Source: Candidatus Eremiobacteraceae bacterium
GTDB lineage: Bacteria > Vulcanimicrobiota > Vulcanimicrobiia > Eremiobacterales > Eremiobacteraceae
NCBI GenBank assembly: GCA_035710745.1
Contig: DASTCX010000031.1
Span: 1 to 64,000 of the forward strand
Direction of reading: 5' to 3'
Length of the DNA stretch: 64,000 nucleotides
The position numbers and the translations under genes were made by a program. Numbering within the stretch: the first letter of the stretch is position 1; the number at the start of each line of letters is the position of its first letter. Below are positions 165 to 63,160 of the stretch, in pieces. The notes under the pieces were generated by a model. That model did no database searches, had not been told where the DNA came from, and saw only the letters and a program-made list of their open reading frames with translations.

Positions 165-186
165 CGGTCGAGCTAAAGCTCGACCG
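165..186. repeat. REP palindrome, AGCT type
   Basis: Perfect 22-nt inverted repeat: arm CGGTCGAGCT, centre AA, arm AGCTCGACCG. It lies 12 nt past the clpC stop codon. It belongs to the dispersed family linked to the RAYT gene at 20723. Confidence 0.9.
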
Positions 187-197
187 CTACAGAACCC

Positions 198-7272: not shown

Positions 7273-7288
7273 TCAATTTGCTAGGGAG

Positions 7289-7310
7289 CGGTCGAGATTT
7301 ATCTCGACCG
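7289..7310. repeat. REP palindrome, AGAT type
   Basis: Perfect 22-nt inverted repeat with CGGTCGAGAT arms and centre TT. First of three REPs packed into 117 nt between two convergent genes. Confidence 0.9.
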
Positions 7311-7340: not shown

Positions 7341-7362
7341 CGGTCGAGCTAAAGCTCGACCG
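7341..7362. repeat. REP palindrome, AGCT type
   Basis: Same 22-nt sequence as the copy at 165-186. It is the middle member of the triplet and is flanked by the other (AGAT) subtype on both sides. Confidence 0.9.
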
Positions 7363-7383
7363 CTACATTCACTGAGACCGCGG

Positions 7384-7405
7384 CGGTCGAGATAAATCTC
7401 GACCG
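7384..7405. repeat. REP palindrome, AGAT type
   Basis: Perfect inverted repeat with centre AA. It ends 9 nt before the stop codon of the minus-strand gene at 7414. Confidence 0.9.
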
Positions 7406-7413
7406 GTCCCATA

Positions 7414-13414: not shown

Positions 13415-13436
13415 CGGTCGAGCTAAAGCTCGACCG
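13415..13436. repeat. REP palindrome, AGCT type
   Basis: Perfect 22-nt inverted repeat just after the epimerase stop codon and identical to the copy at 165-186. Confidence 0.9.
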
Positions 13437-13489
13437 CTACAAGCCCATTGAGGCAGGTCCTGTACGGGCCCCGCCTAAACGCTTGATGC

Positions 13490-18417: not shown

Positions 18418-19352
18418 CCGTCACGATCGAGACGAAGGCGCTCACGAAGCGCTACGGCGTCCATACGGTCGTCAACGGCATCGACCTTCGGATCGAGTCG
18501 GGTTCGATCTTCGGTTTCCTCGGACCGAACGGCAGCGGCAAGTCGACGACGATCAAGATGCTGTGCGGGCTCGTAGCGCCGACGTCGGGAAGCGCGTCGG
18601 TGGACGGGCACGATATCGTGCACGATGGTGACGGCGTCAGGCTCGCGATCGGGTACATGTCGCAATCGTTCTCGCTCTACGGCGATCTGACGGTCGATCA
18701 GAACCTCGAGTTCTATGGCCGCGCATACGCGCTCGAGGCGGTTGCGCGTGAGCGGCGCAAACGCGAGGTGGCGGAGCTCACCGGCGTCGAACGCTTCAAG
18801 GACCAGCAAGCGCAAACGCTGTCGGGCGGATGGAAGCAGCGCCTCGCGCTCGCCTCGGCGTTGCTGCACGACCCACAAGTGCTCTTCCTCGACGAGCCGA
18901 CCGCGGGCATCGATCCGGTCGCTCGTCGCGACCTATGGGATCTGTTGTTCAAGCTCGCGGGCGATGGCCGGACGCTGTTCGTCACGACGCACTATATGGA
19001 CGAAGCCGAGCGGTGCACGCGCGTCGGCTACATCTACGACGGCGATCTCATCGCGCAGGGAACGCTCGACGAGTTGCGCGCGCTGCCGGGCGTCAACGCG
19101 CCTGGCACCGTTCGCTATTTCGTACGCTCGGATCGGGTGATGACGGCGTTCGCGCGTGCGCGCTCGCTGCCGTACGTCCGCGACGTCACGATCTTCGGCC
19201 GAGATCTCCACCTCGTCGTGTCGTCCGACGTCGACTCCAAGCGTGTCGCGTCGGACCTGTCTGAAGCGGGAGTGTCGATCGTCGAGCGGATCGAGCCGTC
19301 GCTCGAAGACGTCTTCGTCGCGTTGACGCGCGCTCGGGCGAACGTCGCATGA
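18414..19352 (+). CDS. ABC exporter ATP-binding protein
   Basis: 312-residue ABC ATPase, YbhF/NatA-like. The GTG at 18414 overlaps the stop of the adaptor gene (GTGA). Walker A GPNGSGKST, Q-loop SQSFSLYGDL, signature LSGGWKQRLALA, Walker B VLFLDEPTAGIDP and H-loop TTHYMDE are all intact. Only one nucleotide-binding domain is present, so it should homodimerise on the ABC-2 permease encoded next, with which it overlaps by 4 nt. Confidence 0.93.
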   Translation: MTVTIETKALTKRYGVHTVVNGIDLRIESGSIFGFLGPNGSGKSTTIKMLCGLVAPTSGSASVDGHDIVHDGDGVRLAIGYMSQSFSLYGDLTVDQNLEFYGRAYALEAVARERRKREVAELTGVERFKDQQAQTLSGGWKQRLALASALLHDPQVLFLDEPTAGIDPVARRDLWDLLFKLAGDGRTLFVTTHYMDEAERCTRVGYIYDGDLIAQGTLDELRALPGVNAPGTVRYFVRSDRVMTAFARARSLPYVRDVTIFGRDLHLVVSSDVDSKRVASDLSEAGVSIVERIEPSLEDVFVALTRARANVA

Positions 19353-20473
19353 GGCGTCCGTTCGACCTTCGCGGATTCGGCGCGGTCTTGTACAAGGAAC
19401 TGATCCACGTCGTCCACGACCCAACGACGCTCGTGCTCGCGCTCGCGCTGCCGCTCCTCCAGCTGCTCATATTCGGTTATGCGATCAACACGCGCGTCGA
19501 GCACATCGGCACCGCATATCTCGACGAAGACCACGGTCAGATCGCCGTACGTGTGCTCGACGCCTTGCGTGCGTCGCAGGATTTCAACCTCGTGTACGAG
19601 GCTGGATCGCGCGAGCAGCTCCACGAGCTCATCGTCGCCGACAAGGTGAAGATCGCGATCGACGTTCCGCCGAATTTCTCGGCCGACGTCATCGCGGGAA
19701 GACCTGCCCAGCTCCAGGTCCTCATCGACGGCTCGGACTCGTCGATCGCAGACGTCGCGCTCGCTTCGGCATCGTCGATCGGCTCGGCGTTGAGCGCTCA
19801 GCTCGACCCGCGCTTGAGCGTGACGCCGCAGCTCATCGACGTGCGGCCGAGGACGCTCTTCAATCCGAGCCTGCGCAGCGCGAACTTCCTCGTGCCCGGG
19901 CTCATCGGCGTCATCATGCAGATCATCACGATCTTCTTGACGGCGCTCGCGATCGTCGGTGAGCGCGAGCGCGGCACGCTCGACCAGCTGCTCGTGACGC
20001 CCATCGGCTCGACCGGTCTCATGCTCGGCAAGATCGTGCCGTACGCCGCGATCGGGTTCGTCGACTTCCTCGGCGTGTTCGCCGCTATGCTGTTCGTATT
20101 CAAAGTGCCGATCGCCGGTAGCGCGCTGCTGCTGCTCGTCCTCGCGATCGGGTTCTTGCTCGCGGCGCTCGGCTTGGGTCTGCTCGTCTCGAGCGTCGCA
20201 CGCTCGCAGCTCCAGGCGATGCTCATGACGATGGGCATCATGCTGCCGTCGATCTTGCTCTCGGGCTTCTTCTTCGAACGCGACGCGATGCCGTGGATCA
20301 TGCAGCTCCTCGGTTATGCGATTCCGCTGACCTACTTCCTCGAGATCCTCCGCGGCATCATCTTGCGCGGCGCAGGCCTTGCGGAGCTCTGGCCGTCGGT
20401 CACCGCGATGCTCTCGCTCGGCTTGTTCCTCGTGATCGTCGCATCGGTCCGCTTCGCCCGCACCACATCATGA
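19349..20473 (+). CDS. ABC-2 type exporter permease
   Basis: 374 residues with the YbhR/YhhJ-like layout: one N-terminal membrane segment (VLALALPLLQLLIFGYAIN), a large extracytoplasmic domain (~45-175), then five hydrophobic segments. The ERERGTLDQLLVTPIG motif at the domain boundary is typical of ABC-2 permeases. It completes the exporter operon. The substrate is unknown; drugs or lipids are usual for this group. REP arrays begin 20 nt after its stop. Confidence 0.9.
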   Translation: MRRPFDLRGFGAVLYKELIHVVHDPTTLVLALALPLLQLLIFGYAINTRVEHIGTAYLDEDHGQIAVRVLDALRASQDFNLVYEAGSREQLHELIVADKVKIAIDVPPNFSADVIAGRPAQLQVLIDGSDSSIADVALASASSIGSALSAQLDPRLSVTPQLIDVRPRTLFNPSLRSANFLVPGLIGVIMQIITIFLTALAIVGERERGTLDQLLVTPIGSTGLMLGKIVPYAAIGFVDFLGVFAAMLFVFKVPIAGSALLLLVLAIGFLLAALGLGLLVSSVARSQLQAMLMTMGIMLPSILLSGFFFERDAMPWIMQLLGYAIPLTYFLEILRGIILRGAGLAELWPSVTAMLSLGLFLVIVASVRFARTTS

Positions 20474-20488
20474 CCGCTTGAGAGACTG

Positions 20489-20680
20489 GGGAGCGGTCGA
20501 GATTCATCTCGACCGCCGCGGCCTCGCACGTAAGGAAAAGGGGAGCGGTCGAGATGCTCTGAGTAAAGGGGAGCGGTCGAGATTCATCTCGACCGCCGCG
20601 GCCTCGCACGTAAGGAAAAGGGAGCGGTCGAGTTGCTCTGAGTAAAGGGGAGCGGTCGAGATTCATCTCGACCGCCGCGG
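20489..20680. repeat. Upstream REP array of the RAYT locus
   Basis: Three full AGAT-type palindromes at 20494-20515, 20574-20595 and 20653-20674, spaced 80 and 79 nt. They sit in a tandem unit that also carries a truncated half-copy (20546-20555 and 20625-20634) followed by TGCTCTGAGTAAAG. Each full copy is preceded by GGGGAG and followed by CCGCGG. The array fills nearly the whole gap between the exporter permease and the transposase. Confidence 0.92.
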
Positions 20681-20722
20681 CCTCGCCTGGACGATAGGTT
20701 CAAGCGAAGTGAAGCCCTTATC

Positions 20723-21184
20723 ATGAGATTTCACAGGACACCACCGCGCCTTGAAGACGTCGACTATGCTCAGGATTTAACGTACCTCATCACATTCTGC
20801 GTCGCCGACAGACGCGCGGCGTTTTCTGAGTCAACTATCGCGTCGATCGCGACCGAAGAACTGCGCCACTTTCGCGATGCCGGTTTGTACTATCTCTACG
20901 GATACGCCGTTATGCCCGACCACATTCACGCGGTCATGCGTCTGCGAAAGGTCGGCATCCACCTATCGAAGGTTGTCAGAACGCTGCGCGCCGCCATCAC
21001 GATACGAGTTCGCAGACTTATCGATGGATTCGAGTGGCAGCGCGGCTATCACGAGCGGATCATACACGGTGTGAGAGAATGCCGAGAAACGGTCGACTAC
21101 GTTCTTGCGAACCCTTTCCGGGCCGGCCTCGTAGCAGCTCACGAACAGTACGAATACTCAGGGATTGTCGATCGTTGGCGTTGA
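20723..21184 (+). CDS. REP-associated tyrosine transposase (RAYT, Y1_Tnp family)
   Basis: 153 residues of the IS200-like HUH endonuclease family. The HUH pair is in MPDHIHAVM near residue 73. The catalytic tyrosine is most likely that in ETVDYVLANPFRAGLV near residue 128; the segment WQRGYHERII just before it is typical of RAYTs. Unlike an insertion sequence it is single copy here and flanked by REP arrays in opposite orientations. RAYTs are thought to be domesticated, vertically kept enzymes that mobilise REPs through single-stranded DNA. No ribosome site stands out before ATG 20723. Confidence 0.93.
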   Translation: MRFHRTPPRLEDVDYAQDLTYLITFCVADRRAAFSESTIASIATEELRHFRDAGLYYLYGYAVMPDHIHAVMRLRKVGIHLSKVVRTLRAAITIRVRRLIDGFEWQRGYHERIIHGVRECRETVDYVLANPFRAGLVAAHEQYEYSGIVDRWR

Positions 21185-21195
21185 CTCGGCTAGAC

Positions 21196-21410
21196 CGCGG
21201 CGGTCGAGATGAATCTCGACCGCTCCCCCAACCTACGTGTTTTGGCCGCCCTCATCCCAACCGGTTAGACCGCGGCGGTCGAGATAGATCTCGACCGCTC
21301 CTCAACCTACGCGGCTCGACCGCTGCCATCCCAGTCGGCTAGACCGCGGCGGTCGAGATGAATCTCGACCGCTCCCCCAACTTAGTTGTCTCGACCGCTC
21401 CCCCAACCTA
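21196..21410. repeat. Downstream REP array of the RAYT locus
   Basis: Three full AGAT-type palindromes at 21201-21222, 21276-21297 and 21350-21371, spaced 75 and 74 nt, then a half copy at 21389-21397. Each full copy is preceded by CCGCGG and followed by CTCC (CTCCCC in the first and third). This is the exact reverse complement of the upstream layout, so the transposase sits inside an inverted pair of arrays. Confidence 0.92.
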
Positions 21411-21443: not shown

Positions 21444-24400
21444 TTAGTCGCCGGCGTCGGTGCCGACGAGCTCGATCGTGTCCTCGCGTTCGAGGGTCGG
21501 CGTGGTCGCCATAAGGCGACGGTTGACGAAACGGCCGCCGGAGCGGTTTGCGACGGCGAGGTAAAGCGTCGGGACGACGAGCAACGAGAGGAACGTCGAC
21601 GTGACGAGTCCGCCGATGACGACGGTCGCGAGCGGTGCTTGCGTCGAACTGCCTGCCTCGATGCCGAACGCAAGCGGCAGCATGCCGCCGCAGGTCGCGA
21701 ACATCGTCATGAGGATGGGCCGCAATCGCATCGGCCCCGCGCGCATAAGGGCGTCGCGAGCGGACAGACCCTCTTCTCGCAGCTGGCGCGTGAATTCGAC
21801 GACGAGGATCGCGTTCTTCACCGCGATGCCGACGAGCATGAGCGAACCGATGAATGCGGTGAGGCCGAAGGCGCGATTCGTGATGAGCAGCGAACTGATG
21901 ATGCCCACGAGCGACAACGGGATCGATGTCATGATGATGAGCGGATCGACGTACGACTCGAACTGCGCGGCGAGCAGCATATAGATGAGGAGTATCGCGA
22001 GGCCGACCGCCAAGTACATCCCGCTGAAGCTGTTCTGACCCTGGACGATCTCAGGGCCATATTGCCAGCGATAGCCGTCGGGCAGGTGCATGCCGTCCAT
22101 GACGACCGCCGCGTCTTTGAGAATCGGCCCGAGCGGCCTTCCCGAGATAGGCGCTTGGATCTCGATATTCCGTTGACGGTTCAGACGGCTGATCGCAGAC
22201 GGGCCGAAGCCTTGCGAAAGAGCCGCGACGCTGCCCAGCGTCAGACCGTTCGACTGCGCTTGCGATCCGCTCCCGACCGGGTTTGCGCCGGTCGGATCGT
22301 ACACACCCGGATTCGAAGAACCGCCGGCCGACGTGGTCCCACCTGAGCCGTTCGCGGCACCGGCCGGCAGCTCGAGTTGACCCAGCGCGTTGAACGAGCG
22401 CCGCTGCGCCGCGGGCAGTTGCACGATGATCGGATATTGGATGCCGTTGACCTGGAAGAAAGAGGCCGTCGAACCATTCGTCGCCGTATCGATGAAGCCG
22501 GCGAGGTCGCCCGTGCCGAGCCCGGACATCATCGCCTTCGTGCGATCGATCGCGACATCGACCTCCGGCTGCGCTTCGGTCACATTCGTGTCGGGTTGAC
22601 CGACGCCGGGTATCTGCGCGAGTCGCGACATCGCGTCGTTCGAAAGCGCCTGTAGTCTGTTGATGTCCGGTCCGAACAACTCGACCTCGAGCGCGGTCTG
22701 ACCCTGCGATATCTGGCGCTGGACGATGTCGATGGTCTGACCGCGGACGATAGATCCGGCAAGCGCGGCGCGGAGCTTCGGATCCGAGCTCCTGCCGGAA
22801 AGCTTCGCGTTCCACTCGTGGACGAATGACGCCGCCGCGCTTGCGCTCGTTCCGGGCTGCAGCGTTACCTGCAGCGTCGCACGGTTCGTGATCGGGCGAG
22901 CCGACGTGAAGCCGGTCTGGCCAACGGTGGACCCGACCGCGACGACGCGTGGATCTTTGCGCAACGCCGACTCGATGACGCGAGAAACGGCATCGGTGCG
23001 CGCGAGCGCATCGCCGTTGGGCGTCTGCAGCCCGATGGAGACGAAGCGTGAGTCGGACGCCGGGAAGATCTCCGTCTGCACGACGCCCGCGAGCAGCGAG
23101 CCGAGCGCTATGACGAACAAGCCGATCGCACAGCCGAGCACCGCACGCGGCCGATCGAGGCAGAAGCCGAGCGCGCGCCTGTAGGTATCCTCGAACCGCG
23201 CATATCCGTGGTCGAATCGCGCGCCGAAGGTGCGGCGTCCATCATCGCCGTCTGCCGCCGTATCGCGACGGCGGAGGATGCTGGCGGAAAGCATCGGCAC
23301 CGCGGTGACGGCGACGAGAAGCGAGATACCGACCGCGCTCATGACGACGATCGCGAACGGGGTGAAGATGAGCCCCTGCAATCCGGGGATGAGCATGAGC
23401 GGGAAGAACACGGTGATGACCGTGATCGACGATGCGAGGACCGCCGTGAAGATCTGCGTCGTCGCCTTTTCCGCCGCCGCGACCGGCGCGTTTCCCGCGC
23501 GCAGGAAACGCGAGATGTTCTCGATGACGACGACGGCATCGTCGACGATGAGGCCGACGCCGAGCGCGACGCCGCCGAGGGTCATGACGTTGAGCGACTC
23601 ATGGAGGAGGTATGCGACGAAGAGCGTGCCGAGGATCGAGACCGGCAGCGATACGGCGACGATGACCGTCGACCGCCAAGAGTGCAGGAACAAGAGGATG
23701 ATGAGCACAGCGAGCACCGCACCGTAGATCGCCGTGTGCTCGAGCGATGCGAGCGCGCTCAAGATGAATTCGCGCTGATCGAGCATCGTCTCGAAGTGCA
23801 TCTGCGGATACGACTTGTGGATGTCCGCGAACTTCGCCGACAGCTCGTTGGCGACGGCGACGATGTTCGCGTCGGGTTGTGCCGTGATGTTGAGGAGCAC
23901 CGACTGCTGACCGTTGAGTCGGGAGAAGACGCGCTGTTCTTGGATGCTGTCCGAGACGCTCGCGATGTCCTTGAGCCGTATCGCCGATCCGGCTTGGACC
24001 GCGATGACCGTATCGCCGACGTCGGCGGCGGATTTGTAAAGCGCGCTCGTGCGGATGCCGTATTCCTCCGGCCCGATCTGGATGATGCCGGCGGGAATGT
24101 CGACATTCTCGTTCGAGATGCGGTTCATGACGTCCGTGAGCGTCAGTCCGATCGCAGCGAGCTTGTGCTCGTCGGGCTGCACCATGATCGCGCGCTGCGC
24201 CGCGCCGGAGACGCTGACGCTGCCGACGCCATGGACCGAGGCGAGCTCGTCGGAGAGCTGGTTGTTGATGATGTCGGAGAGGTCGCGCTGCGTGCGCGCG
24301 GGATCCGTCACTTCGAGCGTGAGTATCGGCAGGGCGTTCGGATCCGCCTTGATGATCTGCGGCTCTTGCAGCGCAGGGTCGTTCGGCAGCGACGCGCGGA

Positions 24401-24743
24401 TGCGTGCCACCTGCTGCTGGACGTCGACGGCGGCGACGTCGATGTTCGTGCCGTAGTCGAACTGGATGCGTACGCTCGAGACGCCCGGCGCCGAGGTCGA
24501 CTCGAGGATGTCGATGCCGGACACCCGGCTCACCGCGTTCTCGATCGGCCGCGTCACGGTCGACTCGATCGTCTCCGGCGATGCATTCGTGTACAGAACG
24601 GTGACGAATACGACCGGGGGTGCGAACGACGGCAACAGCGCGACTGGCAAGCGTGGAGCTGCGAAGATGCCGAGGACGACGATCGCAGCCGAGAGCATCG
24701 TCACCGCGACCCTGCGCGTGACGGCGAAACGAGCGATGGACAT
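21444..24743 (-). CDS. RND multidrug efflux permease (AcrB/HAE1-like)
   Basis: Proton-driven inner-membrane pump of about 1,099 residues. ARFAVTRRVAVTMLSAAIVVLG forms the first span. The second periplasmic loop, GGVALGVGLIVDDAVVVIENISR in the TM4 region with the two Asp residues needed for proton relay, and MLVGIAVKNAILVVEFTRQ in TM10 are present. The extracytoplasmic C-half carries a Gly/Ser-rich insert (GSGGTTSAGGSSNPG) absent from E. coli AcrB. I chose ATG 24743 because the family N-terminus MSIARFAV starts there. No membrane fusion protein or TolC lies next to it. Confidence 0.92.
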   Translation of the reverse strand: MSIARFAVTRRVAVTMLSAAIVVLGIFAAPRLPVALLPSFAPPVVFVTVLYTNASPETIESTVTRPIENAVSRVSGIDILESTSAPGVSSVRIQFDYGTNIDVAAVDVQQQVARIRASLPNDPALQEPQIIKADPNALPILTLEVTDPARTQRDLSDIINNQLSDELASVHGVGSVSVSGAAQRAIMVQPDEHKLAAIGLTLTDVMNRISNENVDIPAGIIQIGPEEYGIRTSALYKSAADVGDTVIAVQAGSAIRLKDIASVSDSIQEQRVFSRLNGQQSVLLNITAQPDANIVAVANELSAKFADIHKSYPQMHFETMLDQREFILSALASLEHTAIYGAVLAVLIILLFLHSWRSTVIVAVSLPVSILGTLFVAYLLHESLNVMTLGGVALGVGLIVDDAVVVIENISRFLRAGNAPVAAAEKATTQIFTAVLASSITVITVFFPLMLIPGLQGLIFTPFAIVVMSAVGISLLVAVTAVPMLSASILRRRDTAADGDDGRRTFGARFDHGYARFEDTYRRALGFCLDRPRAVLGCAIGLFVIALGSLLAGVVQTEIFPASDSRFVSIGLQTPNGDALARTDAVSRVIESALRKDPRVVAVGSTVGQTGFTSARPITNRATLQVTLQPGTSASAAASFVHEWNAKLSGRSSDPKLRAALAGSIVRGQTIDIVQRQISQGQTALEVELFGPDINRLQALSNDAMSRLAQIPGVGQPDTNVTEAQPEVDVAIDRTKAMMSGLGTGDLAGFIDTATNGSTASFFQVNGIQYPIIVQLPAAQRRSFNALGQLELPAGAANGSGGTTSAGGSSNPGVYDPTGANPVGSGSQAQSNGLTLGSVAALSQGFGPSAISRLNRQRNIEIQAPISGRPLGPILKDAAVVMDGMHLPDGYRWQYGPEIVQGQNSFSGMYLAVGLAILLIYMLLAAQFESYVDPLIIMTSIPLSLVGIISSLLITNRAFGLTAFIGSLMLVGIAVKNAILVVEFTRQLREEGLSARDALMRAGPMRLRPILMTMFATCGGMLPLAFGIEAGSSTQAPLATVVIGGLVTSTFLSLLVVPTLYLAVANRSGGRFVNRRLMATTPTLEREDTIELVGTDAGD

Positions 24744-24817
24744 TAGTGCGGGGAGACCTCGAGATCCACGATAATTAGGCTCCCGATTCAATGCGGGCGA
24801 GAACCTACCATTTTGTG

Positions 24818-24834: not shown

Positions 24835-24855
24835 GGTCGAGATGAATCTCGACCG
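24834..24855. repeat. REP palindrome, AGAT type
   Basis: Perfect inverted repeat with centre GA, located between the murQ stop and the RND pump start on the minus strand, next to another small hairpin. Confidence 0.9.
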
Positions 24856-24880
24856 CTCCCAACTTTGCGCCCATCGAGCG

Positions 24881-34163: not shown

Positions 34164-34192
34164 ATCGCGCAATGTACAGCCGGAGGCTGTAG

Positions 34193-34214
34193 CGGTCGAG
34201 CTTTAGCTCGACCG
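34193..34214. repeat. REP palindrome, AGCT type
   Basis: Perfect inverted repeat with centre TT, between the convergent 3' ends of the ABC permease and the thioesterase. Confidence 0.9.
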
Positions 34215-37249: not shown

Positions 37250-37332
37250 GGGTTTGGTCTACGCGTCAGCGCTTTGCTCGGCCTCCCATAGCTCTGCGTT
37301 ACGATAATTGTAGTAGGCCGAGTTGAAGGGAG

Positions 37333-37354
37333 CGGTCGAGATTCATCTCGACCG
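37333..37354. repeat. REP palindrome, AGAT type
   Basis: Perfect inverted repeat with centre TC, preceded by GGGAG. It is the only copy between two divergent gene starts (M1 peptidase and HD protein), so it could lie in a promoter or leader. Confidence 0.9.
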
Positions 37355-62138: not shown

Positions 62139-63160
62139 GTCGCCGAGCTTCGCTCGGCATACCACATCGGGTTCGACATCCCGGCGGCGAGCGACGCGAT
62201 GGCACGCTCCGCGAGGTCCGCCAAACATCGGATGTACGATGGGTGGCATTTCACCGCACACGCGCGCTCGAATTCGGCGATGTGCGAGGCGCGCGCGATC
62301 TCTCGATATTGGATGTCGATTTCGTTGAGCGTCTCGACGTGTTCCGTGACGAACGCGACCGGAACGACGCACGCGGCCCGTGCGCCCGATTTGCCCAGCT
62401 CTTCGAGCAGCGAATCAGTCGACGGCGACAACCATTTCTGCGGTCCGAGCCGGCTTTGGTACGAGAGATGCGACGGCCCGGGGTGCTTCAATTTCAAGAG
62501 CGCTGCCGACATCGAGCGCTTGACGTGCTCGACGTACGGGTCACCCCGCTCGATATAGCTCAATGGCAAACCGTGCGCCGAAAAGATGAGATGCACGTCC
62601 GTCGGCGCCGCCGTGAACGAGCGCAGCGCCTTGCGCGTGACGTCGACGAGCGCATCGACATACGACGGTTCGTCGCAATGCTCGTCGATGACACCGAGCG
62701 GAGGCCGATAGGCCATCGTCGCCAGCACCCGCCGCAGCTCGTTGACGCTCGAGCGCGTCGTCGCGTACGAGCACTGCGGATAGAGCGGCAGTGCCGCGAG
62801 ATGCGTCACGCCGTCGCGCTGCGCACGCAACAATGCTTCCGCCGAATCCGGATGCCAGTTGCGCATAGCGACGTAGACCGGCCACGACCGTCCGCGACGG
62901 CGTAACTCGTCGCGCAGACCATCGGCTTGCGCTTGCGTCTGGGCTCGTATCGGTGAACCACCGCCGATCGATGCGTAGAGCTTGCGCGACGTCGGAGCGC
63001 GCCAGGTCGCGATGAGTTCGGCCAACGGCCGAATGAGAAGCCGCGGCGCGTTATCCGCGAGCAGATCGCGGAAGAAGTTGCCGAGAAACGGCCGAACATC
63101 CGACAGCGTCTCGGGTCCTCCGAGCTGGAGCAATACGACTCCCGGGCGTACCTCGCTCAC
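62135..63160 (-). CDS. hemH: Ferrochelatase
   Basis: 341 residues from GTG 63160, which overlaps the hemE stop (GTGA). VRPGVVLLQLGGPETLSDVRPFLGNFF opens the family. LIFSAHGLPLSYIERGDPY holds the His of the active site, SYQSRLGPQKWLSP and VPVAFVTEHVETLNEIDIQYRE hold the downstream conserved His and Glu. It inserts iron in the porphyrin. It may use coproporphyrin III in a Gram-positive-type route, which cannot be told here. Confidence 0.95.
   Translation of the reverse strand: MSEVRPGVVLLQLGGPETLSDVRPFLGNFFRDLLADNAPRLLIRPLAELIATWRAPTSRKLYASIGGGSPIRAQTQAQADGLRDELRRRGRSWPVYVAMRNWHPDSAEALLRAQRDGVTHLAALPLYPQCSYATTRSSVNELRRVLATMAYRPPLGVIDEHCDEPSYVDALVDVTRKALRSFTAAPTDVHLIFSAHGLPLSYIERGDPYVEHVKRSMSAALLKLKHPGPSHLSYQSRLGPQKWLSPSTDSLLEELGKSGARAACVVPVAFVTEHVETLNEIDIQYREIARASHIAEFERACAVKCHPSYIRCLADLAERAIASLAAGMSNPMWYAERSSAT

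Follow-up and report, generated by a model that had tools for sequence, protein, structure and literature searches.

A REP-associated tyrosine transposase between convergent REP arrays, and two coexisting REP codes, in the Eremiobacterota

Published REPs carry a head of the form GT(A/G)G (PMC2817692, PMC3686654, PMC6006769), and GTAG REPs have been reported from Cyanobacteria, Chloroflexi, Planctomycetes and Verrucomicrobia (PMC3733652). In the E. coli enzyme the GTAG head is contacted by Arg104 (PMC8266576, PMC6006769), a residue that is conserved in the GTAG subclasses and kept in group 3 (PMC8266576). Mutagenesis shows that the E. coli enzyme accepts no change of the GTAG head and that group 3 enzymes accept some, and in the TnpAREP of Marinomonas it is the head nucleotides A3 and G4 that choose the C↓T site (PMC8266576).

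We analyzed a window of 64 kb on contig 31 of a genome of Candidatus Eremiobacteraceae (G000; 2.97 Mb, 98% complete), which contains a gene for a REP-associated tyrosine transposase (RAYT), here called RAYT-A. The open reading frame lies at 20723..21184 on the plus strand and encodes 153 amino acids. It is preceded by a gene for an ABC-transporter permease (19349-20473, plus strand) and followed by one for an RND pump (21444-24791, minus strand), both named from their translations. RAYT-A is placed between two convergent arrays of REPs, each with three full copies, with half copies between and beyond them. The components are as follows.

20490..20514, plus strand: A-type REP 1 upstream (GGAG head, stem A:T, loop TTC); 24-nt palindrome GCGGTCGAGATTCATCTCGACCGC at 20493-20516
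20540..20555, plus strand: 5′ half REP consisting of the head and the left arm
20570..20594, plus strand: A-type REP 2 upstream; 24-nt palindrome at 20573-20596
20620..20632, plus strand: 5′ half REP
20649..20673, plus strand: A-type REP 3 upstream; 24-nt palindrome at 20652-20675
21202..21226, minus strand: A-type REP 1 downstream, inverted; palindrome at 21200-21223
21277..21301, minus strand: A-type REP 2 downstream, inverted, loop TCT; palindrome at 21275-21298
21351..21375, minus strand: A-type REP 3 downstream, inverted; palindrome at 21349-21372
21389..21403, minus strand: half REP, inverted

On both flanks the full REPs have their heads directed outward and their CCGCGG tails toward the gene. 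An earlier note on this DNA had described a RAYT bracketed by mutually inverted REP arrays, with periods of 79-80 and 74-75 nt and half copies in between. The three full copies on each side are read directly in the window, and the periods are 80 and 79 upstream and 75 and 74 downstream. In the sister species the orthologous locus has two REP copies on each side, at a distance of 49-50 nt, and half copies are lacking. Since the sister locus has just two copies per side at another spacing and without half copies, the RAYT-A arrays have grown locally, in agreement with the growth by tandem duplication that had been suggested for them.

The protein scores 94.6 bits against the curated NCBIfam equivalog model for REP-associated tyrosine transposases (NF047646, cutoff 80), and its Pfam match is PF01797 (Y1_Tnp). 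Its best solved relative is the E. coli TnpAREP 4er8, both for the single sequence (E=8e-4) and for a profile of 13 relatives (E=1.4e-13). With a structural model of RAYT-A (pLDDT 75, built on 3 sequences only) as the query, Foldseek also placed 4er8, the TnpAREP-REP complex of E. coli, at the top (E=4.2e-7), with ISDra2 and IS608 next. The catalytic residues, H67-I-H69 of the HUH motif and the tyrosine Y126, are invariant in 13 aligned RAYTs. Thus the assignment of the Y1-type HUH protein at 20723 as a RAYT has held. The motifs DHIH, WQ and YVLANP, together with REPs that are perfect palindromes, resemble the set DH[LF]H, WQ and YI[VI]ANP of subclass 2.5, which is group 3 of Bertels (PMC6006769), a comparison made by motif only. 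RAYT-A has a GC content of 55.6% and a GC3 of 62%, low against 63% for the window and a GC3 of 88% for the neighbor. Yet it is syntenic in both species (G000 and its congener G001), which speaks against recent acquisition of the gene.

The same data bear on whether the unit is simply an insertion sequence of the IS200/IS605 family, of which the REPs would be merely the ends. The Y1 fold is common to both, the second-ranked structures in the fold search belong to that family, and there are hairpins at both ends of the gene. Against this, the IS200 model (NF033573) gives 15.5 bits, far under its cutoff of 55; each RAYT is single-copy; RAYT-A occupies the same place in both species; and the hairpins exceed the gene by hundreds. 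We consider an insertion sequence very improbable.

A second, diverged paralog, RAYT-B, is found on contig 25 of the same genome and in the congener, with one copy of each gene in G000. The two proteins are 61% identical and form sister clades whose split is older than the two species. In both species RAYT-A is flanked by GGAG-CGGTCGAGATTCATCTCGACCG and RAYT-B by GTAG-CGGTCGAGCTTTAGCTCGACCG, the flanking REPs being convergent at each. Throughout G000 the head and the stem pair go together: we count 179 REPs with GGAG and the A:T stem and 117 with GTAG and the C:G stem, against 5 GTAG-AT and 16 GGAG-CG. The part of G001 that was covered gives 33 GGAG-AT, 29 GTAG-CG, 1 GTAG-AT and 7 GGAG-CG. Fisher's test returns p values of 1e-61 (G000) and 5e-12 (G001), which overstate independence because the REP copies descend from few founders. 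The head and stem pair co-vary, so that there are two REP families, each tied to one RAYT. Each RAYT has probably given rise to the family of short intergenic hairpins that matches it, from one hundred to several hundred in number, and the families differ at exactly those bases that enzymes of this kind are known to recognize.

RAYT-B REPs, with their GTAG head, conform to the published definition of a REP. The A-stem REPs do not, since 179 of the 184 that carry either head have GGAG. No occurrence of GGAG as the start of a word was found in PMC2817692, PMC3686654, PMC3733652, PMC6006769 or PMC8266576. RAYT-B (outside the coordinates of the earlier note) and its separate REP code had been overlooked there, as had the fact that the GGAG head is non-canonical.

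The commonest class of REP is GGAG with the loop TTT (115 copies), and the RAYT-A flanks carry the loop TTC; either RAYT-A tolerates both loops, or the TTT class was left behind by a previous state of the RAYT. A further stem class, C (GGTCGACCTTTACGGTCGACC, about 60 copies), has the GGAG head too, and GTAG versions are absent among its common forms. There is also a class GT(A/G)G-TA-GCCGAGCGAAGCTCGGC, of which the 17-nt hairpin occurs 71 times in 2.27 Mb. A search of the G000 genome found no cognate RAYT for it, and these hairpins are possibly relics of a lost REPtron. One copy of this family, written GT(A/G)G-TA-[GT]GCCGAGCGAAGCTCGGC, lies in the window at 62142-62165 on the minus strand.

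REPs are dispersed through the rest of the window. It contains 15 near-matches to the 20-nt REP core, against 0.13 expected in shuffles. REPs away from the RAYT-A locus are the following.

166..190, minus strand: B-type REP, solitary
7285..7309, plus strand: A-type REP with the loop TTT, the left-hand REP of a convergent cluster
7342..7366, minus strand: B-type REP, GTAG head, C:G stem, forming a heterotypic doublet with 7285-7309
7385..7409, minus strand: A-stem REP with the variant head GGAC
13416..13440, minus strand: B-type REP, solitary; in the sister the orthologous gap has an A-type REP of opposite orientation
24835..24859, minus strand: A-type REP, solitary, just upstream of the neighboring minus-strand RND pump gene
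34189..34213, plus strand: B-type REP, solitary; the sister species has no REP at this site
37329..37353, plus strand: A-type REP, solitary; the orthologous sister site has a B-type REP

How widespread are these palindromes? G000 was read directly over 2.27 Mb of its 2.97 Mb, in stretches, and the full genome was covered by pattern search. The exact 24-mer occurs 213 times genome-wide, and the reversed control pattern 0 times. The genome-wide count that the earlier note had suggested comes to 248 exact copies of the 20-nt A-stem core in G000; there are 130 in G001 and 0 in 39 other Eremiobacterota genomes. The corresponding numbers for the B-stem core are 186, 136 and 0, the reversed controls for the cores being 0 apart from a single stray hit of the B control in G037. 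The 39 relatives outside the genus in which the A palindrome was not found include family members without a RAYT and others whose RAYTs have different palindromes. Equal abundance in relatives lacking the RAYT had been named as the observation that would speak against a link between the two, and the opposite is seen: REP abundance tracks the cognate RAYT, with copies only in the two genomes that have RAYT-A and RAYT-B.

Within the 2.27 Mb, 300 of 329 REP copies (91%) are not wholly inside predicted genes, where 17.5% would be expected. Of 278 copies, 142 are in gaps flanked by convergent genes, a type that makes up 20% of gaps; the gene predictions come from a home-made codon model that missed the RAYT itself. 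Such a placement of half the REPs between convergent gene ends, and the strength of the stems, could suggest that the host maintains the palindromes because they serve as bidirectional transcription terminators or stabilizers of mRNA ends, with the RAYT a bystander. However, a terminator would not be expected to conserve an unpaired head and a 3′ tail, nor to show strand asymmetry in its loop. Moreover the tail is CCGCGG with no T run, the head matches the neighboring RAYT in two species, and the REPs are wholly absent from relatives in the same family. We therefore regard a purely host-maintained origin as unlikely. A host role could still have been gained later.

Adjacent REPs form 71 same-orientation pairs about 50 nt apart, mostly of one class, 28 convergent pairs and 0 divergent pairs. 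In 16 of the 21 convergent doublets that can be classified one end is A and the other B, and one is AA, a significant contrast with the tandems; the spacers of the convergent doublets are partly self-complementary, e.g. GACCTTGC...GCAAGACC. Thirty-one clusters could be compared in the congener, where 25 sites are occupied and 6 unoccupied, though some of the absent calls may be decayed copies. Cluster sizes are often unequal between the species (8 against 1 in one case). At some shared sites, such as 37329 in the window, head and stem class change together, and both here and at 13416-13440, where the sister has the other class, it is as if REPs had been replaced or re-inserted at preferred sites. 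Comparison of empty sites with the sister species did not find a single precise insertion boundary. There is one clean empty-site case, at window position 34189, with TCTA-REP-TCTA here and a single TCTA in the sister; deletion between short repeats would explain this equally well.

Taken together, the locus is very probably a REPtron, with the RAYT-A gene bracketed by the REPs that its product processes and with each of the two paralogs now using a recognition code of its own. This reading rests on the family membership of the protein, the convergent REPs, their genome-wide spread, their restriction to the genus and the presence of a second, paralogous REPtron. The observation of the earlier note is confirmed, and its interpretation in terms of a RAYT and its REPs is supported. 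By analogy with work on TnpAREP from E. coli, Stenotrophomonas and Marinomonas, we infer that RAYT-A would bind the REP hairpin as single-stranded DNA, reading the 5′ head and features of the stem and loop, and would cut C↓T beside the hairpin with formation of a Tyr126-DNA link. Strand transfer would then seed new REP copies, mainly in intergenic positions, and the tandem arrays would subsequently expand and contract by local duplication. RAYT-A would recognize the GGAG heads and RAYT-B the ancestral GTAG head. Both codes retain A3 and G4, the head nucleotides that presumably direct the cut to C↓T; since GGAG still has A3G4, a C↓T cut is predicted for both paralogs. The 3′ tails have C↓T at +8/+9 in 66% of A-TTC, 63% of A-TTT and 38% of B copies, and a CT anywhere from +7 to +11 in 71-77% of A and B tails, compared with 10-16% for a control position close by. 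This conserved CT is consistent with cleavage there, and is not proof of it.

RAYTs occur elsewhere in the family. The earlier note had asked whether each genome of the clade has one RAYT with a matching REP. Each RAYT does have its own palindromes; RAYTs are present in 10 of 14 family genomes, and these have from one to three. The REPs are convergent at the family RAYTs examined, with a palindrome that differs for each RAYT lineage. Their heads are mostly GTAG, the exceptions being GTGG (G002), GAAG (G003) and GTAC (G010, where the gene is truncated). One genome, G008, has three RAYTs (L021, L030, L032) with three different flanking palindromes. One of its REPs is found in G008 only, and 10 of its 15 copies are at its RAYT, suggesting that the system is young or local. 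Two RAYTs are apparently broken, by an in-frame TAG in G007 (L023) and by truncation at 126 aa in G010 (L031), and the flanking REPs are still there in each. In G051, a distant member of the phylum, there has been an expansion, with 12 matches to the RAYT model (L178, L184, L186-L195), 5 of them over the cutoff.

How does a RAYT choose its own REPs? Here the head and one stem pair have been changed naturally between paralogs, in at least two species and over hundreds of substrate copies. In this natural experiment, two small proteins and short oligonucleotides make specificity switching directly testable. Residue 115, which aligns without gaps to R104 of E. coli, is histidine in RAYT-A of both species and arginine in 12 of 12 other family RAYTs; of the 12 positions at which RAYT-A of both species has a residue found in no other family RAYT, it is the sole one where all 12 others agree. 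In the structural model (pLDDT 75, 3 sequences) it comes just after strand β4 (110-114). Five distant RAYTs of the phylum have Arg as well, and their readable heads (L187, L188) are GTAG. In a stronger form of the explanation, His115 permits GGAG in place of GTAG. The association is confined to one lineage and so to a single evolutionary event, and in G003 the second base of the head has changed (GAAG) with Arg115 kept. We thus hold a role for His115 to be quite conceivable, though short of probable. A strict rule linking Arg115 to GTAG was rejected on account of G003. It is a tentative suggestion that the RAYT pair has evolved two orthogonal single-stranded DNA codes (GGAG with A:T, and GTAG with C:G) through few residues including 115, with mixed doublets that would need both enzymes to move.

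In terms of known systems, the RAYT and its REPs are of a described kind. The earlier note had expected novelty from an uncultivated, deep-branching phylum. The REP/RAYT system is indeed extended to the Eremiobacterota; however, with GTAG REPs already reported across several phyla (PMC3733652), the argument that a new phylum means a new kind was rejected. What is new is the switched head and the two coexisting codes, in a new phylum. The closest resemblance is to the group 3 RAYT/subclass 2.5 REPtrons of Stenotrophomonas, fluorescent Pseudomonas and Marinomonas Mb (PMC2817692, PMC3686654, PMC6006769, PMC8266576). These share the length of about 151-153 aa, the motifs DH[hydrophobic]H, WQ and Y-x-x-ANP, two inverted flanking REPs, palindromes that are short and perfect and enclose a small loop, and several paralogs per genome with cognate REPs in hundreds of intergenic copies. 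They differ in that the RAYT-A head is GGAG rather than GT(A/G)G, the host phylum is Eremiobacterota, the codes here differ by one head base and one stem pair, and inverted doublets usually mix both. Like the E. coli TnpAREP with its y and z REPs and BIMEs (group 2), the system has the HUH-Y1 fold (4er8), a head 5′ of the hairpin and inverted pairs of unlike REPs as composite elements; in contrast, the palindromes here are perfect and lack a bulge, the protein has no long C-terminal tail, and there are two RAYTs rather than one. The inverted doublets also recall the REPINs of Pseudomonas fluorescens (PMC3116915), and the spacer here is partly self-complementary as well. In contrast to the REPINs, there are more same-orientation tandems here (71 pairs, about 50 nt apart) than inverted doublets (28), most of which are heterotypic.
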